Shown here piece after piece: positions 6,381 to 26,794 of a stretch of DNA of 40,435 bases (position 1 is its first letter; each line of letters begins with the position of its first letter). The translations under genes were made by a program, and so were the position numbers. Under the pieces are notes generated by a model. That model saw nothing but the letters and a program-made list of their open reading frames with translations. It was not told where the DNA came from and ran no database searches. Source of the DNA: a virus; the IMG/VR virus record IMGVR_UViG_3300003323_000149, positions 1 to 40,435 of that record; one strand, written 5' to 3'.

Positions 6381-7628
6381 ATGACCCAAGAATTCCAAGC
6401 CCCTCCTGGCGCAGATGCGCCGACCAATGGCCGTACACGGATTCCGGTCGGGACGCTGATCTCTCACGACCACGGCTTCTACCGCTGGCCTGAGTGCGGA
6501 AACGCAGAAGACGCAGACCCCAAGACCGAGTTTGATGTTTCCGTGGCCGGAGACACGGTCGCGCTCACGGCGCCCGGCTTCGGCGGAGCTCCGTACCGCA
6601 ACGGCAGCATCCTCGTGAAGCTGAGCCACTGGCGGCAGGCTTGGGGCGTCCAATCCCCTGTTCCTGCACCTGAGCCGGTGGCTTGGCAGGTTCGCTGGAC
6701 GAACCCAGGAGACAACCCGAACGTCAGCGAAGACGAGACGGCTTGGAAGCCCGTCGATACCTCGCTATCTCGTGGGCAAACGATGGATGAGCGCCTGAAC
6801 GAGCTTCGTGGTTATCGGTTCAACGGGCGGCCGTCCTACGAAGTCCGCCCGCTTTACGCGGCGCCGGTTCAAGCCCCAGCAGAGGGGGATGCAAACCTGA
6901 CCGAGCTGAAGATGCTGCGCGCCAGAGTCAGGGCTCAGCGCGACGAACTCGCCAGCTACAAGCAGCAGGACGAGTGGCAGGCCAAGCGGTTTGGCCGCGA
7001 ATACGAGGTATACCGCGATGAAGTGCGCGTGGCCGCGAACTACACCTTGCAGGAAGCTCAGAACTTCGCTTCTGAACTCTACGCACGCGGCGGCACCGTG
7101 GAGGTCTTTGAGCGGACGCGCCGCCGCATCTCGTGGGCCAACAAGGACGGCTACGCAGCATCCGTGAAGCAGGCCGAGGCTCGGGCCGCCCAGCCCCAGC
7201 CCAAGGGGACGAGCTACAGCACGACAGACGGCGTGCGCTGCGATCACTGCCGCCAAGTGTTGTCCGCGCACGATGGCGGGCGCACTTGCCCACCCCCCGC
7301 GCCTGCACCTGAGCCGGTCAACGAGCGCAAGCAAGCCGAGCACCAGTACAGCATCACCGCGTTCGACTACGTCAATCAGCCGGTCGGGTCGCGTGACTGG
7401 TGCCTGTACTGGGATGGTTGGCGTGCTCGCGCAGCAATCGCAGCCCCCGCAGTACAGGATGGGCTCGACTATCGCGGCGCCCTCAAGGACTTGGTCGCGG
7501 AGTTCAAGCGCGTCTTCCCAATCTACTACTACGCCGAGCCGTGGGCGCACGACCGCAACGAGGTGCTAATCAACGCAGAGCTGTTGCTGTCGACTTCGAA
7601 GCCCCCGGTACAGGGGAGCCAGCCATGA
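6381..7628 (+). CDS. Large modular accessory protein, unknown function
   Basis: A 415-residue protein, the longest in this block, starting at ATG 6381. It appears mosaic. Pro/Ala linkers (PVPAPEPV, APVQAPAEG, PAPAPEPV) separate three or four modules: an N-terminal beta-rich part, an EPVAWQVRWTNPG...YEVRPLYAAP module, a helical middle (LRARVRAQRDELASYKQQDE), a CDHC...C segment at about residues 283-306, and a C-terminal EHQYSITAFDYVNQ... WDGWRARAAIA module. Such phage proteins vary by module shuffling between relatives. No catalytic motif is visible and the role is unknown. Confidence 0.65.
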   Translation: MTQEFQAPPGADAPTNGRTRIPVGTLISHDHGFYRWPECGNAEDADPKTEFDVSVAGDTVALTAPGFGGAPYRNGSILVKLSHWRQAWGVQSPVPAPEPVAWQVRWTNPGDNPNVSEDETAWKPVDTSLSRGQTMDERLNELRGYRFNGRPSYEVRPLYAAPVQAPAEGDANLTELKMLRARVRAQRDELASYKQQDEWQAKRFGREYEVYRDEVRVAANYTLQEAQNFASELYARGGTVEVFERTRRRISWANKDGYAASVKQAEARAAQPQPKGTSYSTTDGVRCDHCRQVLSAHDGGRTCPPPAPAPEPVNERKQAEHQYSITAFDYVNQPVGSRDWCLYWDGWRARAAIAAPAVQDGLDYRGALKDLVAEFKRVFPIYYYAEPWAHDRNEVLINAELLLSTSKPPVQGSQP

Positions 7629-7744
7629 AGCGGGACGGCATGGACCCGTGGCTGACTGCGGCGGGCGTCTTGTGGGTCGTCAACCTGATCGGCTGGCTCG
7701 CCTACTTCATCTGGCTTGCGGTACAGCCTACGGGAGGCGCGTGA
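7625..7744 (+). CDS. 39-residue membrane protein
   Basis: Begins at ATG 7625 with an ATGA overlap and has one transmembrane helix (LTAAGVLWVVNLIGWLAYFI) with short polar ends. The stop shares one base with the next start at 7744. It is one of several tiny single-pass proteins in this operon. Function unknown. Confidence 0.5.
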   Translation: MKRDGMDPWLTAAGVLWVVNLIGWLAYFIWLAVQPTGGA

Positions 7745-7974
7745 TGCTGAACTGGGGCGACACCACAGGCTGGCCGCCGGCCTACCCGACGCACGGGGCC
7801 TACCCTGCCTGCCTGCACCCTCTGATTGCCAATGGCCGGGAAGTCAACACCTTTGCATCTTCGCGCGGCGAGCGCTGCCCGAACTGCGGCGCCTACGTGG
7901 TCTTCAAGTGCGCCCCGGAGAACGAGCCGGCCGGCGCCACCTTTTGCATCCCCTCACAGGGTCCATCGACATGA
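7744..7974 (+). CDS. Small zinc-ribbon-like protein
   Basis: A 76-residue protein from ATG 7744. A central CPNCGAYVVFKC motif and another Cys near each end (PACLHP, ATFCIP) suggest a small zinc-binding fold. The N-terminus is rich in Pro, Tyr and Trp. It has one-base and four-base overlaps with its neighbours. No function can be given. Confidence 0.5.
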   Translation: MLNWGDTTGWPPAYPTHGAYPACLHPLIANGREVNTFASSRGERCPNCGAYVVFKCAPENEPAGATFCIPSQGPST

Positions 7975-8330
7975 GCCGGCCCGACTGGTGCCCTGTGGCA
8001 AACCACCCATGCGCCGCCGGCTGCGAAACGCCGTGCAGCCTGAGCAACGGCGGCATGCTGATGGAGATGCAGCAGGCGCTGGACCTGCTGGCCGGCCTAC
8101 ATCCGTGTCTGACCACCGACGACCCGGCCGAGATGGCGAAGCAGATCTTCGACTCCGTGATGTCGGAGCGCTCCGCGCACGCCCAAGCGGTGACGAACTG
8201 GGCGCGCAACCTGGATTTCCGCGACGAGTTGATCGCCCGGTGGCGCGCCGGCATGCGTGAACTGATTTCTCAGCGCATGGGCGCCGAAGCCATCAGGGAG
8301 CGCCTGCAATCGCTTCTGCGCGGCGCCTGA
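7971..8330 (+). CDS. Accessory protein with Cys-rich head and helical body
   Basis: A 119-residue protein from ATG 7971, coupled by ATGA. The first 25 residues carry four cysteines (DWCPVANHPCAAGCETPCSL), which could bind a metal or form disulfides. The rest is predominantly helical (MEMQQALDLLAGLHPCLTTD, AMRELISQRMGAEAIRERL-like). No family is recognised. Confidence 0.55.
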   Translation: MSRPDWCPVANHPCAAGCETPCSLSNGGMLMEMQQALDLLAGLHPCLTTDDPAEMAKQIFDSVMSERSAHAQAVTNWARNLDFRDELIARWRAGMRELISQRMGAEAIRERLQSLLRGA

Positions 8331-8339
8331 ATCTCATAC

Positions 8340-8347
8340 CCCCTGCC
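8340..8347 (+). promoter_or_regulatory. C-rich start-associated leader motif CCCCTGCC
   Basis: CCCCTGCC ends five bases before ATG 8353 in a 22-base gap (atctcataccccctgccagg). Only a weak AGG could serve as ribosome site. Confidence 0.45.
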
Positions 8348-8352
8348 AGGAC

Positions 8353-8772
8353 ATGACCATGATCCGCTTCGTTGACATCCGCGGCCAGGACATCGGCCAC
8401 CGCTTCGCCTTCTGGGACACGATCCGCCAAGAGTTCTGCACCTTCTCCGGCTGCCAGGCCTGGGACGATGCCGACGACTTTGCGCGCGACTACCGCAGCC
8501 ATGGGCAGGAGTTCTTCGGCGGCCTGGAGCGCTTCACGGGCCTGATGCCCGCATGGGCGTCGCAGCCGGCCACCGACGCCGAGCTGATGTCGCCGGACGA
8601 GCCTGCGGAGTCCCAGCCCCAGGATGCGGACACGGTGCGCGACGCCGAGCGGTATCGGTGGCTTGCCAAGGAGCACGGCTGGTGGCTGCTGAAGCACTTC
8701 CCCGCGCAGTCGCCCTACGTTGACGCCAGCGAGGTGATCGACGCCGCCATTGACGCCGCCCGAGGCGCCTAA
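8353..8772 (+). CDS. Two-part accessory protein, unknown function
   Basis: A 139-residue protein; ATG 8353 and ATG 8359 are both possible. The N-terminal half (VDIRGQDIGHRFAFWDTIRQ, FCTFSGCQAWDDADDFARDY) is alpha/beta. A Pro/Glu-rich linker follows at about residues 75-95. The C-terminal half has the pattern RDAERYRWLAKEHGWWLLKH...VDAAIDAARG, which I recall as a frequently shuffled ending in small phage proteins. No function is known. Confidence 0.6.
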   Translation: MTMIRFVDIRGQDIGHRFAFWDTIRQEFCTFSGCQAWDDADDFARDYRSHGQEFFGGLERFTGLMPAWASQPATDAELMSPDEPAESQPQDADTVRDAERYRWLAKEHGWWLLKHFPAQSPYVDASEVIDAAIDAARGA

Positions 8773-11083: not shown

Positions 11084-11084
11084 T
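11042..11084 (-). terminator. Two tandem hairpins after the last late gene
   Basis: On the - strand ACAGCCGAGAGGCTGT (11084-11069) is a perfect 6-base stem with a GAGA loop that touches the holin stop codon. A second related hairpin, TACTGCCGGGAGGCTGTA (11059-11042), follows. Neither ends in a T run, so these could be mRNA-stabilising or attenuating stems rather than classical intrinsic terminators. Confidence 0.4.
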
Positions 11085-11488
11085 CAGCTCGCCACACCCT
11101 TGACCTTTTCCACGCTGCGATAAGCACCAAGTCCGAGCATGCCGAACAGCAGCGGCATCATGGTCGCCATGTCCATCTGCGGAAACTTCACCGGATGGCC
11201 GGCAAGCGCAGCGCCCCACTCAGCCAGCGGGCCAACGACGAACTGCACTGCAAAGCCAGTACCGCAGACCCAGCCCACAAAGGGCCGCCACCCCGCAACG
11301 AAGGCATTGCTGCTCGCCGCTTCCTGCTTGTTGATATCCATCTGACCAGCGATCTGCGACAGCTCGCCCTGCTGCTGGAGCTTGAACAGCTCCAACTGCG
11401 CTGCGGCCTTCTGGGCTGGATCAGGGAACAGGCGGTCAATCACCTTGCCGCCGATGTCCAGGATTGCAGTGACGGGATCGAGCGCCAT
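11084..11488 (-). CDS. 3TM-type holin (gene-transfer-agent holin family)
   Basis: A 134-residue protein, start at ATG 11488 with GGAG nine bases upstream; GTG 11500 in the same frame lies inside the endolysin gene. The N-terminal half is an amphipathic helix (ILDIGGKVIDRLFPDPAQKA, then a Gln-rich helix). Membrane segments follow (WRPFVGWVCGTGFAVQFVVG, and MMPLLFGMLGLGAY). This matches the layout of the Pfam family described as holin of 3TMs for gene-transfer release. It lies directly after the endolysin gene at the end of the late operon and would permeabilise the inner membrane for lysis. Confidence 0.8.
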   Translation of the reverse strand: MALDPVTAILDIGGKVIDRLFPDPAQKAAAQLELFKLQQQGELSQIAGQMDINKQEAASSNAFVAGWRPFVGWVCGTGFAVQFVVGPLAEWGAALAGHPVKFPQMDMATMMPLLFGMLGLGAYRSVEKVKGVAS

Positions 11489-11490
11489 GG

Positions 11491-11910
11491 TTAGCTCCAC
11501 ATCGGGCGCGTGCCCGTCTTGTCGATTTGCAGGTATTGGCCGCGAGGCTTCTCAGCCCACGAGATATGGACCCATCGGTTGAATTCCAAGATCGCTTGAT
11601 CCAGATCAATGCCTGAGTCTTTCAGGGCGGAGATGACCGTCGTCGGGGTGCCAAAGCCTGGGCAGATGAAGTCCACCGCCTGGCCGGTGAGATGCTGGCT
11701 GTTGGGCTGGCCGCCGACCGCCTTGTTCAGGGCTGGTGAGCGGTAGCCGCTGCTGATGATGATGGGCGCCCCGAGGCGCTGCCTCACCGACTCCAGCAAG
11801 AGTGCCGTGCGCTTGAGGTTGGCGACGATCTCCAGCGGAGGGTCGTTGTCGATATCACGATGTTGGGTCGCGATCAGCTCCTCCAGCGTGAAGTGCGGGC
11901 TGAGGTTCAT
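11491..11910 (-). CDS. Endolysin, peptidase M15_3 (D-Ala-D-Ala-type carboxypeptidase)
   Basis: A 139-residue zinc peptidase of the M15 family. It shows the expected ISSGYRSPALNKAVGG and SQHLTGQAVDF segments, which contain the metal ligands H73 and D80, and WVHISW with the second His ligand (H115). Small M15_3 enzymes of this length act as phage endolysins that cut the peptide stems of peptidoglycan. No signal peptide is present, so export depends on a holin. It overlaps the upstream gene by ATGA (11907-11910). Start ATG 11910. Confidence 0.88.
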   Translation of the reverse strand: MNLSPHFTLEELIATQHRDIDNDPPLEIVANLKRTALLLESVRQRLGAPIIISSGYRSPALNKAVGGQPNSQHLTGQAVDFICPGFGTPTTVISALKDSGIDLDQAILEFNRWVHISWAEKPRGQYLQIDKTGTRPMWS

Positions 11911-12304: not shown

Positions 12305-14059
12305 TTAGGCAAGCTCGATGTCGGCCGTAATGCCGAAGGTGATGGCCGCGCCACTGGTGAAGTTCGTTCCGTCCGCCTTGTAGATCTTGAGAAGGTTGGC
12401 GGCCGAATCGAAAACAAAGCGGGCGGGGGTGGGGGTCGTGTTGACGGTGAGTCGGCCGGCTGCTTCTTCATCCGCGCCAGTGCGCAGCGTCCAGCCAGGC
12501 GGCAGGCTGACCGACAGCCAAGAGGGCGTCACTGCGATGAGCTGTAGGCCGATGTTCAGGTCAACGCGTGGCGTGCGGCCCTGGGCCTTGTATCGCGCCC
12601 GCGTCTGTGTCGGAGACCCTGAATAACTGGCGCCATAGTTGCCGACAGAGCTGGCGAAGGTGGGCGTGTAGTCCTTCATGTAGCCATAGACGCCCACGTC
12701 CAGGCCGGCCACGTCCTCGGAGACGACCGAGTTGTAATCCATGTACGGCAGCCAGTCGGAGATTTCCCCGTAGGCGCTGTTCTGGCGCCGGATGGCAGCG
12801 GCCAAGCCAGAAGCCAGGCGGGGCGCCGACAACTTGAAGCCCGCCACCTCGGCGCCGTCGAAGATCATTGACTTCGCTCGCGTGCCGCCGCTGTTGGTAT
12901 CGAAGTAGCAGTGCAGCAAGATCGGGCGGATGGTGCCGACGCCGCTGTTCGTGCCGAAACGGGCGTGGTATTGGGCGCTGCTGTTGCCGTAGTTGGCCTC
13001 AAACCAGCAGGTGTCCAGCACCAGGCCTTCGATGGTCGAACCGCTGGAGCTGTCGCAGTAGAGGCCCTCTTCGCCGCTGGATTCAAAGTCCCAGTTCGTG
13101 AAGATCAGGCCATTGGCATCGATGATCTTTGCGCCCTTCGTGGTCGCGCCAGTGCAAACACCGCTGTCGAAGTGAATCGTCGTCGGGAACCCGCCAGACG
13201 TTTTCTGAACCAGCAGGTTGATGCCGTTCAGCTCCAGGTAGGCGTTGATGTACGCCTTGAGGACATCGCCCACCCGCATGCCGGTTGCAAAACCCTTCGC
13301 GCGCAAGTTCTGGACGCGGATGTCGCCGATGGAGGAGGCGTCGCCGAGATAGACGCCCGTCGTCCCCACGGCCACCGTATGCAGCAGCTGGAAGTCCCGC
13401 AGAACCTTCGGGTAGTTGGCGCCCCCAATGCTCAGCAGCTTCGTGACCGATGCGCCGGCCTTGATGATGGAAACCGAATCGTTCTGGCCGACGATGCCGG
13501 CGCAAGTGGGAGCGGGGAGATTGGTGTTGCAGACGAACGTGCCCGTCTCAACCTCAATGATCTTGCCCAGTGACGTGACCGCGTTGGCGATCTTGGCGTA
13601 GTCGTCCGTTGTGCCGTCACCCGCAGCGCCGAAGTTGGCCTTGAGGCCCTTGACCTTGAGATTGAGGAACGGGCCAACGGTCGTGTCGACTTCCCCGGCG
13701 CCAGACAGATGCAGTCCTACCAAGTCCGCGCCCTTGCCGCTGGAGGTGCTGGACAAGTCAGAGCGCAGGGAATTCGCCGAGTAGTCGCCCCCAGCAACCT
13801 GATCAGCGGTCCACAAGAGATTGCCGCTCGCATCCTTTGCCAAGATCTTGTAAAGCAGGCCAGTGGCCAGCCACATCACCACCTCGCCACGGCTGTTTGC
13901 GGTCACCGGATTGGTGTTCGGTACAGTCTGGCTCGCGTCGGTGTAGGTCGCCTGCGGCGTTGACGTGCCGGCTACATAGGTGTAAACCTGCGCGCCGATG
14001 GCGAGATTCCCGCTGTTGTCGTAGAGGCGCAGGACTGGGATGGGTGTTAGTGCGGTCAT
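12305..14059 (-). CDS. Tailspike with right-handed beta-helix (pectate-lyase-like)
   Basis: A 584-residue receptor-binding protein. The N-terminal roughly 100 residues (PVLRLYDNSGNLAIGAQVYT, TYTDASQTVPNTNPV) are the virion-attachment module shared by many podoviral fibres. From about residue 135 (LKANFGAAGDGTTDDYAKIA) it has the opening signature of pectate-lyase-superfamily beta-helix spikes, followed by repeated beta-rungs. A jelly-roll-like C-terminal part covers the last 130 residues. It probably binds and may cleave a host surface polysaccharide. Catalytic residues cannot be read with confidence. It has its own upstream terminator and follows the ejection-protein genes. Confidence 0.85.
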   Translation of the reverse strand: MTALTPIPVLRLYDNSGNLAIGAQVYTYVAGTSTPQATYTDASQTVPNTNPVTANSRGEVVMWLATGLLYKILAKDASGNLLWTADQVAGGDYSANSLRSDLSSTSSGKGADLVGLHLSGAGEVDTTVGPFLNLKVKGLKANFGAAGDGTTDDYAKIANAVTSLGKIIEVETGTFVCNTNLPAPTCAGIVGQNDSVSIIKAGASVTKLLSIGGANYPKVLRDFQLLHTVAVGTTGVYLGDASSIGDIRVQNLRAKGFATGMRVGDVLKAYINAYLELNGINLLVQKTSGGFPTTIHFDSGVCTGATTKGAKIIDANGLIFTNWDFESSGEEGLYCDSSSGSTIEGLVLDTCWFEANYGNSSAQYHARFGTNSGVGTIRPILLHCYFDTNSGGTRAKSMIFDGAEVAGFKLSAPRLASGLAAAIRRQNSAYGEISDWLPYMDYNSVVSEDVAGLDVGVYGYMKDYTPTFASSVGNYGASYSGSPTQTRARYKAQGRTPRVDLNIGLQLIAVTPSWLSVSLPPGWTLRTGADEEAAGRLTVNTTPTPARFVFDSAANLLKIYKADGTNFTSGAAITFGITADIELA

Positions 14060-18744: not shown

Positions 18745-19026
18745 TTACCGCCCGTAGATTGAAACGACGCCGCCTTGCAAAGAATTGGCGTCTTGAACAT
18801 GCTGAAATCCCATGAGCGCCAGAAACTTTGCGTGCTTCTTGCATCCCTCATGGAGGGCATAGACCCGGCCGAACGGGGCGAAGAGTTTGGGCGCGAGCGC
18901 GACCATTTCGCGCGCCAGCGAGACGCCCCACTTGCGCACATCGCAGTGCACCCAGAAACACCCGGCGAACTCTTCAACGTACACAGTGAAGGCCGGCGTC
19001 TCGTGGATCACGCGCTTGTCGTCCAT
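18745..19026 (-). CDS. Small protein with acetyltransferase-like C-terminus, gp14 position
   Basis: A 93-residue protein; ATG 19026 is chosen, and GTG 19029 would add one residue and create a GTGA overlap. The order FTVYVEEFAGCFWVHCDVRK ... YALHEGCKKHAKFLALMGFQ resembles the C-terminal half of GNAT folds found in small podoviral late genes, where LHEG..KHxKFLxxMGF is common. It is too short for a full GNAT domain. It lies just upstream of the ejection proteins, where P22 has gp14. Function not established. Confidence 0.5.
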   Translation of the reverse strand: MDDKRVIHETPAFTVYVEEFAGCFWVHCDVRKWGVSLAREMVALAPKLFAPFGRVYALHEGCKKHAKFLALMGFQHVQDANSLQGGVVSIYGR

Positions 19027-19391
19027 CACGCAACCCCGATTTCGCCTTCGGCCTCAAACGTCAGCGCGTTGGCGGCGCTTGCCAATCCGGTGAGGTAGTC
19101 CGCGCTGTCCAGCCGCAGCATCCCGTACCAATCAATGGGCGAGTTCGCGGCGATAGACTGCGCAGCTGACATGAATTCCGTACCGCCAGCTGAGCCGCCA
19201 GTAGCGCCCACAAACAGTGATGCGGTCGCGGCGCTGCCCGTGCGGTTCACGATGCGGATGTGCCTCAGGATCATGTACGTCGCCGTGGACGCCGAGCCCA
19301 CACCGCCAGTAAGCGTCGGCGGGTTTGCCAGATTCGCAGCCGACGTGCCAAGCGATGTCGGGCCGATTCGAATGATCTTGTTCGCAGCCAT
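19026..19391 (-). CDS. Small virion-type beta protein
   Basis: A 121-residue Ala/Gly/Thr-rich protein (PTSLGTSAANLANPPTLTGG, YMILRHIRIVNRTGSAATAS, LFVGATGGSAGG). Composition and alternating strands are like head-decoration or tail-fibre accessory proteins. It starts at ATG 19391, two bases after the previous stop. I do not recognise a family; a structural role is inferred from its position in the tail gene cluster. Confidence 0.55.
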   Translation of the reverse strand: MAANKIIRIGPTSLGTSAANLANPPTLTGGVGSASTATYMILRHIRIVNRTGSAATASLFVGATGGSAGGTEFMSAAQSIAANSPIDWYGMLRLDSADYLTGLASAANALTFEAEGEIGVA

Positions 19392-19393
19392 GT

Positions 19394-19771
19394 CTACCTG
19401 CCGAGGAAAGAAATCACTTCAGACGCCACGTCAATTGAGTCGTCCACAAGAAACGCCAGCGCAGGCCCAGGGGCGCCTGGTTGACCTTGATCGCCTTTGG
19501 GGCCGGGCATGGGCCAGTCATCGCCGCCGCCACTCGTCTCATCGCCAACGAACACAGGGCGCGGCGACTGCGCAAGCTGTGTCAGCACGTCGTTGCTGAG
19601 CGCGTCTGCCCCGCCCATGCGGCGGAAACCGTTTTCTATGTACTGACGCCACGGCCTGGTGAGCCGGCCCTGAGCATCCACAAGCGGGACGCTCCAGTTG
19701 GGCAGGCTGATGTTGTTGTCTCCACCATCTCCGGCGCTGGGCGTGATGGAGTTGGCCCACGGTGATGTCAT
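19394..19771 (-). CDS. Small tail protein with collagen-like segment
   Basis: A 125-residue protein, ATG 19771, overlapping the gp10-like gene by ATGA. The N-terminal part (PNWSVPLVDAQGRLTRPWRQ, YIENGFRRMGG) is helical and conserved-looking. The C-terminal part has Gly-x-y triplets (GPKGDQGQPGAPGP) and a short hydrophobic end. In P22 the tail needle gp26 follows gp10. This protein is much shorter but could be a trimeric fibre or needle tip given the collagen-like repeats. That role is inference. Confidence 0.55.
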   Translation of the reverse strand: MTSPWANSITPSAGDGGDNNISLPNWSVPLVDAQGRLTRPWRQYIENGFRRMGGADALSNDVLTQLAQSPRPVFVGDETSGGGDDWPMPGPKGDQGQPGAPGPALAFLVDDSIDVASEVISFLGR

Positions 19772-21243
19772 GCGCCCAACTCCTCGGCAATCAACGACGC
19801 CCCAACGATGTCGCGCTTCACGGGGTCAGAGAAACGAACCTCATAGACCCGATCTCGGGCGATGCCCAGGCGCCGCCAGATACAACGGTTCTTCGTCTCG
19901 CCGATCTTGCCGATGGAACTCCAATGCTCGTTGCCCCAGGTGCGCCCCCCGTCGTTGGAGAAGCGGAGCATGGCCTGCGGGTCAGAGCCCTGGCCGGTAG
20001 GCAGCGCATCTCCCTGGACAAACTCAATCTGCAGCCGGTTGTGGCGAACACGCTTGCGATCGCTTCGATCCCACACATGAGGAGTGCGGCGCAGGCAGAC
20101 GATGTAATCGGAACCCTCGGTGTACGCGGTGCGGGTCATCCACCACACCTTGCCGTTGGCGGCGTCGCCGACGATCTGCATGCCCTGGAACGCCATCTGG
20201 CAGTTAGACCGATGCCGGCCCGTCACCGCTCCATAGCTCGCGCGCTGGTGCCAGAGGCCCGTAGTCAGGTCGAGAACCCACGTCACATTTGCCGTGGGGA
20301 ACGTGAGCACGTAGAACTCGTGGGAGTCTTCGGTGTAGATGTAGCCAATAGCGTCCGAGATGACGGGGTACTTGCTCAGGGCGTATGAGAACGCCGGGTT
20401 GCGCACCGGCTCCCATTCGTACCCCTTCGTCATGACCACCGCCACGCCGCCGCGTTCGGAGCGCCCCAACCAGATGAGTCCCGAGCCGTACCGGCACAGG
20501 CTGTTCGTGGCCGCGCACCCCACCTGCAGCAGCACACCCTGTTGACGCTGGAAAGGGAAGTAGTTCCCGCCCGCGTTGCTCCACACCTCTGTGGTGGATT
20601 CGCCCACCAGCCAGATTTCGCGGTTCTGCTCGATATGCGCGACGATGTTGTCGCTGAAGTTGTCTTTCAGCGCGAAGTAAGTGGCATCAAGCGCGGAAGC
20701 TCCATCCCAATAGTTCGGGGCCACATAGAACGTTTGGGAGCTCGGCTTGGCGAAGATCAGCCATCCGTCGATTTCAGCGATGCGGTAGGAGCCGAGAAAC
20801 GCTGGGTCGGAGATGGTGCGGAAGGTGTTGGTGATGAAGCTGTACGAATACAGGTTCGTCCCATCAACGATGGCCACAACACGCCCCGCTCCGGTATCGC
20901 GCGTACACACCTGGCCCGAAGAGCTGCTGAGAGTGCCCAGCAGCGCGTATGAGAACGTCGCCCTTGATGTCGCCGTCGCTGGCGTCGCCACGGTCATCAG
21001 CAGCACCTTGGAGCCGACGACAACGATTGCCTGCGTGCCGCCAGGGAGCGGCCATAGGTCGCGCACCTCCCCGGTATACACCGATTGCCCAAGATCAACG
21101 AGGCCGGGGCAGCCGAGCAGCGCCATCGGGGTTTTGGCGCCCTGGTTCTGATCCGTCTCGACGAACCAGTTGATCAGCTTCTGGTTGTCTTGAAGCAGGT
21201 TGGCTGCTTCGTAGGCGCCGCCGACGAAACCAAAGTCCGGCAT
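19768..21243 (-). CDS. P22 gp10-like packaged-DNA stabilisation / tail hub protein
   Basis: A 491-residue protein whose start (MPDFGFVGGAYEAANLLQDN, QKLINWFVETD) and beta-propeller-like body (NAGGNYFPFQRQQGVLLQVG, GLIWLGRSERGGVAVVMTKG, VWDRSDRKRVRHNRLQIEFV) match the family of P22 gp10, the tail hub that closes the portal after packaging. Length is close to P22 gp10 (about 470). It follows the gp4-like gene with a one-base gap, as in P22. Confidence 0.88.
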   Translation of the reverse strand: MPDFGFVGGAYEAANLLQDNQKLINWFVETDQNQGAKTPMALLGCPGLVDLGQSVYTGEVRDLWPLPGGTQAIVVVGSKVLLMTVATPATATSRATFSYALLGTLSSSSGQVCTRDTGAGRVVAIVDGTNLYSYSFITNTFRTISDPAFLGSYRIAEIDGWLIFAKPSSQTFYVAPNYWDGASALDATYFALKDNFSDNIVAHIEQNREIWLVGESTTEVWSNAGGNYFPFQRQQGVLLQVGCAATNSLCRYGSGLIWLGRSERGGVAVVMTKGYEWEPVRNPAFSYALSKYPVISDAIGYIYTEDSHEFYVLTFPTANVTWVLDLTTGLWHQRASYGAVTGRHRSNCQMAFQGMQIVGDAANGKVWWMTRTAYTEGSDYIVCLRRTPHVWDRSDRKRVRHNRLQIEFVQGDALPTGQGSDPQAMLRFSNDGGRTWGNEHWSSIGKIGETKNRCIWRRLGIARDRVYEVRFSDPVKRDIVGASLIAEELGA

Positions 21244-21244
21244 G

Positions 21245-21982
21245 TCAGAAGCCGCCCGTCAAGATGAACCCGGCATCATTTGCGCCGCGCGGCAGGATCG
21301 CGCCATCCATCGCCGCAATGCGGTCAGGCGTGGAGTTGTTGCCCTTGAGAATCTTCTTGTACTTTTCCGCTAGGCGTCTGGTGTCCGGAGGAACAGGGAT
21401 GCCGTAGTCTGCGCAAAGCACCTCAGCCAACGCGTATTGCAGGAACAGGTAGTAGCCCTGCGGGAGCGAGACCGTAGAGGTCAGCGACTCCGGCTGAAAC
21501 AGCATGTCGGTCCAGAAATGGAACTCGGCCGCTTGAGTCGGCACGGGCCACAAGTAGAGCTGGGCCAGCGGGAACGACGCGTTGTAATAGGCGCGCTTGG
21601 GCCAGGGGCCGGGCTGCTGCTTCAGGCCAATGGACGTGTAGCCGTCCGTGTCCACAAGGTCGCACGGAAAGTCCACCGGGCTGCCTGATGTTGTGAGACG
21701 CGAGTAGGCCTGAGTGATCCGCAGCGGGCGCTGAATGTTCACCTCGCCACCAACGCCAACCGTGTACGTGGACTTCCCGGGCGTCAAAGAGATGATGTTT
21801 TCGTTGTTGTTGTAAACCGCCAGATGCTCGTTGGAGAGTACGTCCAGCAGACCATTCAGCGAGTCCAGCGCGGCGTTGGCGTCTTCATTGCTGATCGGCT
21901 CGCCGGCCGCGTATTCGCCGGTCTTCCGGAGAGCGCCCGTGATCAGGTCAAGGGCGTTTTTGGTGGTCGGATCGGTAGCCAT
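21245..21982 (-). CDS. P22 gp4-like tail accessory / head-completion protein
   Basis: A 245-residue helical protein beginning ATDPTTKNALDLITGALRKT and containing ANAALDSLNGLLDVLSNEHL and YYLFLQYALAEVLCADYGIP. This matches the P22 gp4 family, which assembles under the portal as the tail adaptor. P22 gp4 is about 166 residues; this version has a longer beta-rich middle (residues 60-170), as in many environmental podoviruses. The original gp4 has muramidase activity; I cannot identify catalytic residues here. Confidence 0.82.
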   Translation of the reverse strand: MATDPTTKNALDLITGALRKTGEYAAGEPISNEDANAALDSLNGLLDVLSNEHLAVYNNNENIISLTPGKSTYTVGVGGEVNIQRPLRITQAYSRLTTSGSPVDFPCDLVDTDGYTSIGLKQQPGPWPKRAYYNASFPLAQLYLWPVPTQAAEFHFWTDMLFQPESLTSTVSLPQGYYLFLQYALAEVLCADYGIPVPPDTRRLAEKYKKILKGNNSTPDRIAAMDGAILPRGANDAGFILTGGF

Positions 21983-21984
21983 GC

Positions 21985-23178
21985 TCAGTAAACGACGTTG
22001 ACGCCGTTGACAGTGGCAGCAACGCGACCGTCACCGTTGGCGATGTTGCAGCCCGTGATCGGCCCAGAAAGAAGCAGGGTCCGTATCTCGTTCCATGCGG
22101 CGATCATTGATTGCCGCATGTACATCTGGTCGTTATCGAAGGCGTACCAAAAGTACCTTTCGACCCCAAGCGACGCTGCCAGCAAGAGAGCGCGCTTCAG
22201 CCATTTGGCGCGGATGGTGTCGTTGACACCGTAGCTGGGCTCAAGAATGCCGGTTTCTGTGTTCCAGATGCCTTGGGCCATGCTGCGGGCAGTCAGCGTG
22301 GCTTGGACGTTTGCGACCTGGTTTTGGTGAATCTGGAAGTTGTACTTCGGCGGGTACATGTGGATCCCGCACTTATCAATCCACAGCTTGCCGGTGCCGC
22401 TGGCGCTGTCGCTAGCGTCAAGGAACGACTGCAGGTATGCATTGCCGGTGCCGCCCGTCTCTGGTTCCTGGACGATGGGGCCGATGATCTGCGCTGTGGC
22501 GTCGATGCCGGCCAGGATTTGTTTTGCTCGGCGCATGAGCACCGCCAGCTGAGCGGCCGATCCCGACCAATACGAGGTGTAGTTGCACTCGTTCCACAGC
22601 TCGTAATACTTGATCTTGCCGAGGTAGCGGTTGAAAACCGCGGTGCAATAGTTGTCCCAGAAGGTCGTGCTGCTGGGCGGTTGGTTTGTCGCTCGCGCCG
22701 TGGTGCCGTTGTCGTATTTGCCTGTGTTCGGCGTGCTGGCGCTGGCCCAGTCGGGCGTGAACCCGAGCGTGAACATGATTTCCTTGCCTGCCGCGTTCAT
22801 CGCGTTGACCCAGGCATCGGAGTTGGTGAAATCAAACGTGCCGTTGGCTGGGTTCAACGTCACCCAGCGTTGACCACCCGTGCCGCCCGAGTCGTGCGAA
22901 CGTGCAATAGCAAATGGCACCTGAGCGATTGCCGCAGGGATGTTCGCCACCTGCTGCACATGCATCCCAAAAAAGCTCGCCGTGATCTGCCTGGAGCCTT
23001 GGAACACCGACGTAAACGCACTGTTCGGCGTGGTGGGCGCCGGATACGTCCAGAGGTCCGACGTCGTGTAGCAGGTGTAATTGCCGTTGCCAGCCACGAC
23101 CTCGATCACATCGGATGGAATCGGCGACGACGGAATATTCACCCCGTCTTTGACGGTGGTGGTGATGACGGTCGGCAT
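21985..23178 (-). CDS. Virion-encoded glycoside hydrolase, (beta/alpha)8 clan GH-A-like
   Basis: A 397-residue protein with features of a retaining clan GH-A glycosidase. KYYELWNECNYT carries the probable acid/base (W195-N-E197). CGIHMYP carries the conserved His/Tyr pair. GIWNTETGI carries the probable nucleophile E308, 111 residues downstream, within the usual spacing. The barrel start (ASFFGMHVQQVANIP, WVTLNPANGTFDF, EIMFTLGFTPDWAS) resembles GH39/GH5 enzymes. The first 60 residues look like a separate small attachment domain. It lies between the coat gene and gp4, not with the tailspike, so it is probably a virion-bound polysaccharide depolymerase or binder. Confidence 0.75.
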   Translation of the reverse strand: MPTVITTTVKDGVNIPSSPIPSDVIEVVAGNGNYTCYTTSDLWTYPAPTTPNSAFTSVFQGSRQITASFFGMHVQQVANIPAAIAQVPFAIARSHDSGGTGGQRWVTLNPANGTFDFTNSDAWVNAMNAAGKEIMFTLGFTPDWASASTPNTGKYDNGTTARATNQPPSSTTFWDNYCTAVFNRYLGKIKYYELWNECNYTSYWSGSAAQLAVLMRRAKQILAGIDATAQIIGPIVQEPETGGTGNAYLQSFLDASDSASGTGKLWIDKCGIHMYPPKYNFQIHQNQVANVQATLTARSMAQGIWNTETGILEPSYGVNDTIRAKWLKRALLLAASLGVERYFWYAFDNDQMYMRQSMIAAWNEIRTLLLSGPITGCNIANGDGRVAATVNGVNVVY

Positions 23179-23180
23179 CG

Positions 23181-23993
23181 TCAGGCGCCGTAGAAATGGA
23201 CGATGCGGATGCGCTGAAGGGTCGCCACGTTGCTGCCCGATCCGGCCACGGGGAACTGAGCAGTGACGGTCAGCTGCTGCGCCGTGCCAAAGTCCACTGT
23301 GCTGGTCGTGACCGCGCTAGCAGAAAACGTGTTGACTGAGGCTGCGTTGGCAGGGTTACTGACTTGCCCGGACTGGCTATTGCGGTTCGTCATCGGGAAG
23401 ATGCGAACCAACGTGGTGTTGCCCGTGATGGTCAGGTCATCCAACACAACGCCGCCGAAGCGCACGCGCAAGCGCACGGATACGCCAGTGGGCAAAGACC
23501 ATGTGCTCAGGATCTGCAGTTCGCTGCTGGCGCCTAGCGTGTTCGCCGGGATGTTCAGCGTGTACAGCGAGTTGGATTCGTTGGCGTCCGCGTCGTTCTT
23601 GGATTGAGCCGTGCCTTGCGCGAGCCCAAGCGTCACCACCGGAGGAAGAGGCATCAGGTACGCAGAAGGGTTGCTAGCCCGCGCCGTGACGCGATAGATC
23701 TGTCCGGCGCCCAAAAGAATGGATGCGGTATCGCCGTTGAGGGTTGCCGAGCCAGAGACAGCCAGCGTTGCTGTACCAGACGCGGGGCCGATCAGCGTCA
23801 GTCCCGCAGGGAGCGGGGCGACATTTGTCAGCGTGTAGGTAACGCCTGAGGCCAGCTCAAAGACGCCTCCGTTGTCGCCAATGTCCGCAGACCGAGAAGC
23901 AGACAACAGGAACGACGACCCGGAATTGGGCGCGGAAGTGATGACGACGTTAGGAGACGCTGCAACCGAAGGTCCGCCGTTGACTGAAGGCAT
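23181..23993 (-). CDS. Beta-rich virion protein (head fibre or decoration candidate)
   Basis: A 270-residue protein; ATG 23993 is preferred over TTG 24005. Composition is Ser/Thr/Ala/Gly/Val rich with no Cys, and reads as tandem beta-sandwich domains (ELASGVTYTLTNVAPLPAGL, GSATLNGDTASILLGAGQIY; then STWSLPTGVSVRLRVRFGGV). It starts just after an intrinsic terminator and is followed by the glycosidase gene. A head-surface or fibre role is inferred from its position behind the coat gene. Confidence 0.6.
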   Translation of the reverse strand: MPSVNGGPSVAASPNVVITSAPNSGSSFLLSASRSADIGDNGGVFELASGVTYTLTNVAPLPAGLTLIGPASGTATLAVSGSATLNGDTASILLGAGQIYRVTARASNPSAYLMPLPPVVTLGLAQGTAQSKNDADANESNSLYTLNIPANTLGASSELQILSTWSLPTGVSVRLRVRFGGVVLDDLTITGNTTLVRIFPMTNRNSQSGQVSNPANAASVNTFSASAVTTSTVDFGTAQQLTVTAQFPVAGSGSNVATLQRIRIVHFYGA

Positions 23994-24007
23994 GTGTTCA
24001 CCCAAAG

Positions 24008-24038
24008 AAAAAGCCCCTGGCCGTGAGGCGCAGGGGCT
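24008..24038 (-). terminator. Intrinsic terminator between two virion genes
   Basis: On the - strand AGCCCCTG (24038-24031) and CAGGGGCT (24019-24012) form an 8-base stem with an 11-base loop, followed by TTTTC. It lies after the 125-residue virion gene and before the 270-residue one. Confidence 0.85.
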
Positions 24039-24054: not shown

Positions 24055-24432
24055 TTAGATCAGCGGCAACGTGGTCGGGAGATTGCCGACGTACTGCGGC
24101 AGAAGACGGATCACGTTCAGCGCGTAGATCTCACTGGCAGTCGGCGTGATGCCGGCGCCGGTGTTATTGCCGAAGGTCAACGCCAAAGTGTTGGCTGCGG
24201 AGACGCGAGCACCGACCAACGACAAGCCGGCCTGAGCGGTGGGCTTGTACGCGGTGATGATGTCGCCCACTTGCAGGCCGGTCACGGTGAACGTTTGTTC
24301 TGCCGTGGTGTTGGCGGCGACGATGGCGGGTGAGAGGGTGGTGCCGATCATCACGTCGAACAGGTTGTTCGTGTAGCCGATGCCGGTCTGGTTGGCCGTC
24401 GTGACTGACGGTCCGGGATTGCTGTTAGCCAT
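24055..24432 (-). CDS. Small head protein after the coat gene (decoration candidate)
   Basis: A 125-residue, Thr/Ala/Asn-rich protein (TVTGLQVGDIITAYKPTAQA, GLSLVGARVSAANTLALTFG, NNTGAGITPTASEIYALNVI) with an immunoglobulin-like strand pattern. It directly follows the coat gene but is separated from it and from the next gene by intrinsic terminators on both sides, so its dosage may be set independently. Placement after the coat gene suggests a head decoration protein; no family is recognised. Confidence 0.6.
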   Translation of the reverse strand: MANSNPGPSVTTANQTGIGYTNNLFDVMIGTTLSPAIVAANTTAEQTFTVTGLQVGDIITAYKPTAQAGLSLVGARVSAANTLALTFGNNTGAGITPTASEIYALNVIRLLPQYVGNLPTTLPLI

Positions 24433-24450: not shown

Positions 24451-24473
24451 CAGAAAGGCCCCCGGAGGGGCCT
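24451..24473 (-). terminator. Intrinsic terminator after the coat gene
   Basis: On the - strand AGGCCCC-TCCG-GGGGCCT (24473-24456) is followed by TTCTG. It lies eight bases after the coat gene would begin on the template map, between the 125-residue head gene start and the coat stop. Its weak T run suggests partial termination. Confidence 0.7.
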
Positions 24474-24480
24474 AGCTTGA

Positions 24481-25809
24481 TCAGCCGGTGACGCGGCAGG
24501 ACAGTTCGCGGTACAGCGGTGCGACTCCGTACAGGATGTCGATACGCGTCGGAAGGGCGTCGTTGTTGATCGTGTACTGACGCACGATGCGCATCGACAC
24601 GCCAACGTCCTTGTGCGCCGCGCGAGCCGCCATGTCCACACCGCCAGGGAGCGGCAGGTCAGCGCTCACGAAGGTGAACGAGTCCTTGTGGAACAGCAGG
24701 TTCTGAGGGCCGGTCAGGGCGCCAGCGGTGCTGTTGGTCATGTTGATGGACGCGCCGTTGGTCGGGGCCTGCGACACGTTCTGGAACTGACCGCCGCTGA
24801 TGATCGCAACCGCGATGGTCACGCTCAGGCGGCCAGAACCGTCAGCGGTGTAGACACCACCGACCACGTTGCCGAACACGTCGGTCGTGGGCGTGAAAGT
24901 GCCGAACGCTGGGGTGCCGACAGGCGGAACCACCACGAACGTGCGCAATTGCGAGGTGCCTGCGCGGTTCTGCGGGTTGGCCATGTACACGGCAGTGGCG
25001 CCAGAGCCGATGGAGAACGTGTCGCCGACGTTCAACACGGCAGTGGAGGCCGTCCAGCCCGTGGTGTACAGCGTGCCCTTGTCGGCCCAGCCAGTGGTCA
25101 GCAGGGCGGTCGAGGCGTTGGCCGTGGAGAACACCGGAGTGCCAGCCTTCGCGGCGAAGGTCTGGTAGTTGATGTTCTGGTCCATGTACCAGTTCGCGCC
25201 CAGCGTCTCGCGAGCGACCATGCCCTTCTTGTACTGCTCGCCGATCTGCGCCTGGGGGTTGAACAGACCTTGCAGGCCGCCAGTCATGGAGGCGTTGGTG
25301 GTCTGGTCTTGCACCAGGTATCGGTCGCCGTCGCGCTGGGCGGCTTCGGTGTCCAGCACAGCACCGGCCTGCAGGAACGGGGCGGTGGTAGTGGGCAGAG
25401 TGCCGGCCGTGCCAACGATGTTGGCGGTGTTGTTCTTCATCGTCTGGGCGACGAAGTAGTCCACCGAGTTGGCCAGTGCGGCGATCTTGGGCTTCAGGAC
25501 GCGCTTGCTGAACATGTCCATGGACAGCAGCAGGTCCGAAGTGATGAACTGCGTGTCAACGTGCGCCTGATTGGTCAGCGAGACCGGCACAGAGGTTTCA
25601 ACGAAGTCCTGCACCGACAGCGCCGGGCCACCGGAGACGGTGAAGCGCGCGGGCTTGCGGATGTTTACCGTGTAGCCGATCTTGGCGCCGTCAACGCCGA
25701 AGCGGTCGTCGTACTCGCGGTTGATCTTGTCGGTCAGGACCAGTTCGTTTTCGAGGATCATCAGACCCTCATTCGTGATGTCGGAGATTGTGAGAAGTTG
25801 GTTAGGCAT
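24481..25809 (-). CDS. Major capsid protein, P22 coat family
   Basis: A 442-residue protein starting at ATG 25809 (MPNQLLTISDITNEGLMILE, NELVLTDKINREYDDRFGVD). This N-terminus and GYTVNIRKPARF are hallmarks of the P22 gp5-type coat protein with the HK97 fold; P22 coat is 430 residues. Positioned after scaffold, as in P22. A longer frame to 25836 is open, but that part is upstream leader containing the terminator. Intrinsic terminators flank the gene on both sides. Confidence 0.9.
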   Translation of the reverse strand: MPNQLLTISDITNEGLMILENELVLTDKINREYDDRFGVDGAKIGYTVNIRKPARFTVSGGPALSVQDFVETSVPVSLTNQAHVDTQFITSDLLLSMDMFSKRVLKPKIAALANSVDYFVAQTMKNNTANIVGTAGTLPTTTAPFLQAGAVLDTEAAQRDGDRYLVQDQTTNASMTGGLQGLFNPQAQIGEQYKKGMVARETLGANWYMDQNINYQTFAAKAGTPVFSTANASTALLTTGWADKGTLYTTGWTASTAVLNVGDTFSIGSGATAVYMANPQNRAGTSQLRTFVVVPPVGTPAFGTFTPTTDVFGNVVGGVYTADGSGRLSVTIAVAIISGGQFQNVSQAPTNGASINMTNSTAGALTGPQNLLFHKDSFTFVSADLPLPGGVDMAARAAHKDVGVSMRIVRQYTINNDALPTRIDILYGVAPLYRELSCRVTG

Positions 25810-25821
25810 GACGTGCACCAA

Positions 25822-25846
25822 AACAAAAGCCCGCACGAGGCGGGCT
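25822..25846 (-). terminator. Intrinsic terminator between scaffold and coat genes
   Basis: On the - strand AGCCCGC-CTCGT-GCGGGCT (25846-25828) is followed by TTTGTTT. The 19-base hairpin is identical to that at 14074-14092, and the bases just upstream (cccaac/ccc) are also similar. Confidence 0.8.
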
Positions 25847-26769: not shown

Positions 26770-26794
26770 GAAAAAGCCGCCTCGGTGGGCGGCT
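26770..26794 (-). terminator. Intrinsic terminator between portal and scaffold genes
   Basis: On the - strand AGCCGCC-CACCGA-GGCGGCT (26794-26775) is followed by TTTTTC. It lies in the 108-base gap between the two genes. Confidence 0.85.

Follow-up and report, generated by a model that had tools for sequence, protein, structure and literature searches.

Why does a phage with a P22-type coat protein carry a glycosidase gene between its coat and head-tail adaptor genes? The question arose from a viral DNA of 40,435 nucleotides (IMG/VR record IMGVR_UViG_3300003323_000149, positions 1 to 40,435), here called the window. A sequence-only reading had proposed a clan GH-A-like retaining glycosidase at this site and suggested that it could be a second depolymerase or adhesin, bound to head or neck. 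The open reading frame is real, and its position between the coat and adaptor genes is exactly that claimed (Table 1). On the minus strand, the order is coat, hairpin, P0003, hairpin, P0002, glycosidase, gp4-like adaptor and gp10-like closure protein. Gaps of only 2 nt each separate P0002 from the glycosidase and the glycosidase from the adaptor. The start of P0002 is most likely the ATG at 23993, not the TTG at 24005.

Table 1. Positions of the glycosidase, its partner and other features of the window
Feature	Position	Strand	Remarks
Holin	11084-11500		phrog_3427
Endolysin	11491-11910		phrog_894
Putative tailspike	12305-14059	-	51% identity to PBR31 tailspike in an N-terminal stretch of 85 aa
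gp10-like head closure Hc3	19768-21243	-	phrog_578, 4e-92; 56% to PBR31
gp4-like head-tail adaptor	21245-21982	-	phrog_12985, 7e-36; weak Ad3 match; 34% to PBR31 orf025
GH39/PslG-like glycosidase	21985-23178	-	397 aa from ATG; no signal peptide-like N-terminus
Codon of E308, predicted nucleophile	22255-22257	-	in barrel strand 7 (303-309); invariant
Codon of E197, predicted acid/base	22588-22590	-	after barrel strand 4 (191-195); invariant
P0002, fibre-like anchor protein	23181-23993	-	270 aa; ends 2 nt before glycosidase start
P0002 C-domain, residues 119-270	23184-23639	-	beta-sandwich; stays with enzyme; conserved in all cassettes
P0002 N-part, residues 1-118	23640-23993	-	presumed virion-binding end; pLDDT <50
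Terminator-like hairpin	24013-24029	-	after P0003, just before P0002
P0003, coat-adjacent backbone gene	24055-24432	-	125 aa; 38% to PBR31 orf023, same position
Terminator-like hairpin	24456-24473	-	after coat gene
P22-type coat protein	24481-25836	-	PF11651, 1.2e-33; 61% to PBR31; ATG start probably 25809

The AlphaFold2 model of the glycosidase (mean pLDDT 82, pTM 0.81) is a (beta/alpha)8 barrel. Most barrel blocks have a pLDDT above 90; residues 1-60 are weakly modelled. The motifs WNE197, GIHMYP (271-276) and NTE308 are all present, and E197 and E308 are 111 residues apart. In clan GH-A, the acid/base residue follows strand 4 and the nucleophile lies in strand 7. DSSP places E197 right after barrel strand 4 and E308 within strand 7 of the model. 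Fold and active site are thus supported computationally, and the proposed assignment to a clan GH-A-like retaining glycosidase, with both carboxylates in a barrel active site, stands.

A Foldseek search with the model returned the GH39 enzyme XynB1 at rank 1 and PslG at ranks 2, 5 and 6. VIA-align gave Z scores of 28.0 for 5z3k and 27.9 for PslG (5bx9; rmsd 2.7, 313 residues), and of about 24-26 for GH39 xylosidases. The best 13 VIA-align matches include PslG and many GH39 enzymes (Z 24-28), and unrelated GH-A folds score about 23; the closest solved folds are GH39 members. GH5 was considered as the nearest family and is absent among the top VIA-align matches, which does not by itself exclude it. 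A profile of 20 relatives matched solved structures of GH39 enzymes at 6e-21 and of PslG at 4e-17. The Pfam GH39 model PF01229 (cut-off 26 bits) did not match the window enzyme; the related enzyme of phage locus L002 scored 21.6 bits, below the cut-off, and Cr30 gp072 passed with 41.5 bits. The Pfam GH10 model gave the window enzyme 21.2 bits against a cut-off of 22.1, and PHROG and NCBIfam gave no family match for it. Because the Pfam cut-off is not reached, we call the enzyme GH39/PslG-like and do not claim strict GH39 membership.

Judged from the model, the closest functional counterpart would be PslG, an exopolysaccharide hydrolase of Pseudomonas aeruginosa (PDB 5bx9, 4zn2, 9g17). Its catalytic residues are E165 and E276 (PMC7237758; PMC9075953), a spacing of 111 residues that is identical to that of the phage pair. 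Fold and catalytic spacing are alike, but the two enzymes share only 14% identity, and the phage enzyme is set apart by a fibre partner and by an N-terminal extension that is weakly modelled. The GH39 beta-xylosidases (XynB1, 2bs9/2bfg; Caulobacter 4m29) are alike in fold and profile, but the window enzyme falls below PF01229 and carries no xylosidase evidence. A role as endolysin was rejected; endolysin and holin are separate genes, and the glycosidase has neither the position nor the family of a lysis protein.

Relatives of the enzyme on other viral contigs are 82% (locus L001) and 73% (L002) identical. E197 and E308 are invariant in two alignments (20/20 and 16/16 relatives), and R93, H95, N196, H273 and Y275 join them as invariant in the 16 phage-type enzymes. 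Against the L001 enzyme, Ka is 0.127 (about 0.13) and Ks 0.96; by this comparison, the gene is under purifying selection. Close relatives, structure-profile matches, invariant glutamates and Ka/Ks together indicate homology rather than a chance resemblance.

Which genes, then, were inserted? The sequence-only reading had counted three, partly bordered by terminators. The closest backbone found belongs to Xanthomonas phage PBR31 (portal 53% identical; coat, closure protein and P0003 in Table 1). There, a 75-aa gene and then the adaptor come after coat and P0003 homologue, and both P0002 and the glycosidase are absent. Since the P0003 homologue occupies the same place there without the other two genes, the inserted unit is P0002 plus the glycosidase. 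P0003 belongs to the backbone; its position, its size and the terminators suggest that it is probably a decoration protein. As to the borders, the two hairpins exist and bracket P0003; no terminator-like site was found on the minus strand between the glycosidase and adaptor genes. The region has 13 terminator-like sites, against 6.5 expected in shuffles. Such hairpins also follow the portal (26775-26794, minus strand) and scaffold (25828-25846, minus strand) genes, as one does the coat gene, and the head genes may be individually terminated. Between the closure and ejection genes lies a 121-aa gene (19026-19391, minus strand) that is 64% identical to PBR31 orf028, annotated as acetyltransferase; PHROG and NCBIfam gave no match for it. 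The earlier reading also named a beta-helix tailspike. Beyond its N-terminus (Table 1), the putative protein is unrelated to the PBR31 tailspike, and its beta-helix and pectate-lyase Pfam matches are below threshold. With this tailspike and the glycosidase, the phage may have two distinct depolymerases.

The C-terminal part of P0002 is homologous to the corresponding proteins of L001 (57%) and L002 (52%). In the AF2 model, the C-domain has a pLDDT of mostly about 70-90, and its fold resembles carbohydrate-binding modules, lectins and phage fibre domains with moderate scores that do not fix its role. No match in named phages was found for P0002, its N-terminal part or one related anchor. The N-terminal part is poorly modelled, and Pfam and PHROG gave no cement-domain match for the window's P0002. 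Its N-terminus resembles that of P0003 (N-GPSV; shuffle p 0.006), without being the best of 2266 N-termini; this likeness in sequence is only suggestive.

The same pair recurs in other phages. In 16 compared phage loci, a relative of the P0002 C-domain directly precedes the glycosidase relative, and the N-terminus of the anchor differs. A scan with the L002 enzyme gave 14 more loci, each with a small open reading frame directly before the glycosidase (partial in L026). The C-terminal 150 residues of these small proteins are homologous from locus to locus; their homology to P0002 is more remote. A scan that used only the anchor brought up the lineages L043, L048, L053, L056, L057/L058 and L060, and in all six a glycosidase lies immediately downstream. 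Distances among the anchor C-domains correlate with those among the glycosidases (r 0.89 overall, in part an effect of two clades; r 0.52, p 0.001, in the distant clade by itself). The surroundings of the pair are P22-like, Mu/lambda-type or T4-like, and all are structural-gene blocks. Pairing, differing N-termini and spread among unrelated phages are supported computationally.

So is transfer of the pair. The L001 backbone is only 32-44% identical to that of the window, for all the closeness of the enzymes. L002 combines a lambda-family portal with a Mu-like head protein, and no backbone similarity to the window phage was detected. The window backbone is nearest to PBR31, which has no pair, while its glycosidase is 82% identical to that of L001 and 73% to that of L002; this supports mobility of the pair.

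Relatives of either partner also occur alone. The glycosidase relatives of L003 and L004 are not in such pairs, a point against the module reading given below, and more distant anchor-domain relatives (L061-L067) have no glycosidase, so the anchor domain itself is more general. One of these lies next to an Hc3 gene (L061, 3480-3962) and another at 3105-3875 of L066; L066 and L067 are near terminase-like genes. Genome contigs gave no match with a close alignment and, in a second scan, only distant cellular glycosidases. The anchor alignment found no match in 369 class-level genomes, a search without positive control and hence uninformative. In 399 order-level genomes it found a single distant relative, whose locus looks Mu-like. 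In a genome of the order Burkholderiales (L069, reverse complement, about 6517-8585), a related glycosidase (~30%) follows a glycine-rich fibre-like open reading frame in surroundings that read like the structural block of a Mu-like prophage; the fibre partner used there may be another one. The cellular relative L014 lies within a run of genes that read, by eye and not by profile, like genes for making and exporting polysaccharide; this is in keeping with an exopolysaccharide substrate.

The N-terminal part of the L002 anchor is a domain of capsid-cement type (phrog_1731, category head and packaging, E 2.8e-14), paralogous to the decoration protein that L002 itself encodes (36% over 139 aa, E 3e-20). 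The first 34 residues of the L001 anchor match a coat-adjacent 132-aa protein of L001 (47%, E 2e-4). For L029-type anchors, homology of the N-terminus to a coat-adjacent 122-aa protein was unsupported (hhalign E 0.1). In the 17 kb examined, no gene other than the T4-like anchor showed the LTxEELDxNF motif of that anchor. With P0002 as mount and the glycosidase as payload, one would expect what is seen, a constant C-domain and enzyme with a differing virion-facing end.

We consider it reasonably probable that P0002 and the glycosidase form a mobile anchor-plus-enzyme module by which the virion carries an exopolysaccharide hydrolase, in this phage probably at the head or neck. Gene context and anchors suggest that the enzyme is present in the particle. 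The N-terminal part of P0002, which differs by phage type, would bind a virion protein, most likely on the capsid surface or at the neck. The beta-sandwich would be the constant part, and would probably hold the enzyme or bind the same sugar. No signal-peptide-like N-terminus was seen in the paired phage enzymes inspected, unlike most cellular relatives and L003, which have a hydrophobic N-terminal stretch. The phage enzyme should therefore act once released, either bound to the particle or free. Made inside the cell, it would join the particle. After release, E197 and E308 would cut beta-glycosidic bonds by a retaining mechanism. The substrate may be a bacterial exopolysaccharide or biofilm matrix, and cutting it would let the particle move through slime.

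Mounting of the same module at the neck or tail, and not on the capsid surface, is somewhat unlikely. The next downstream genes in the window are the gp4-like and gp10-like genes, and the L001 pair lies between its gp4-like adaptor and gp10-like closure genes. On the 154-kb contig of the T4-like L037, the pair is about 5.6 kb before gp13/gp14/gp15-like neck genes. Since the pair is nearer tail or neck genes in L027/L043 and L037, a head site is not general. Yet the sole identified anchor domain is the capsid cement of L002, and in L029-type phages the pair sits between the P22-like portal gene and the scaffold and coat genes.

Alternatively, the glycosidase could be soluble, freed at lysis to dissolve the matrix round the dead host so that progeny spread, with P0002 an independent fibre. 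Soluble forms of depolymerases exist. The glycosidase is a separate open reading frame without covalent fusion to P0002, and it has no export signal. This is unlikely: in unrelated phages, the enzyme gene strictly adjoins a fibre-like gene whose product has a cement or structural N-terminus. An auxiliary metabolic gene, by which the infected host or lysogen would degrade environmental polysaccharide for carbon, is highly improbable. Viral GH39 genes do appear in a list of carbon-degradation genes of this kind (PMC8725595), and the signal-bearing L003 relative would fit better; the late structural-gene position, the fibre partner and the missing export signal argue against it here. A non-catalytic barrel used in lectin-like fashion, as an adhesin, would suit the lectin- and CBM-like C-domain, but with all inspected active-site residues invariant and the gene under purifying selection we give it hardly any credence.

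The module reading, which we favour, has partial precedents. Caulobacter phage Cr30 gp072, a "beta-1,4 xylanase" with 30% identity over 72% of the enzyme, has a small gene directly upstream. That gene, gp071, has no significant similarity to P0002, the neighbourhood is mostly unannotated, and gp072 is located away from an identified structural block, which counts against the module reading. Gp255 of Bacillus phage vB_BpuM_BpSp is likewise a separate glycoside hydrolase, reported in the virion and interacting with a baseplate protein (PMC4870245); unlike the phage enzyme described here, it is a GH25 with a baseplate contact and acts on peptidoglycan. Hoc, SPP1 gp12 and phi29 gp8.5 are capsid-surface proteins that bind sugars or cells (PMC7602432), and the L002 anchor resembles such head decoration proteins and head fibres in its cement domain. 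That review of decoration proteins mentions no hydrolase or depolymerase, and phrase searches in a collection of open-access papers found none on a capsid-associated depolymerase, which does not prove absence.

Particle-bound depolymerases are thus already known, mainly as tailspikes and tail fibres; the variation here would be a glycosidase with an exchangeable anchor. Tentatively, we propose a mobile anchor-glycosidase plug-in: by swapping no more than the virion-binding end of the anchor, unrelated tailed phages could mount a PslG-like exopolysaccharide hydrolase on the particle, some of them on the capsid surface. If true, a head- or neck-mounted glycosidase would offer a different route through biofilm matrix and would account for the use of one enzyme by phages whose virions are unrelated. 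Some viral GH39-type "auxiliary metabolic genes" would in that case encode particle-bound enzymes that cut biofilm.
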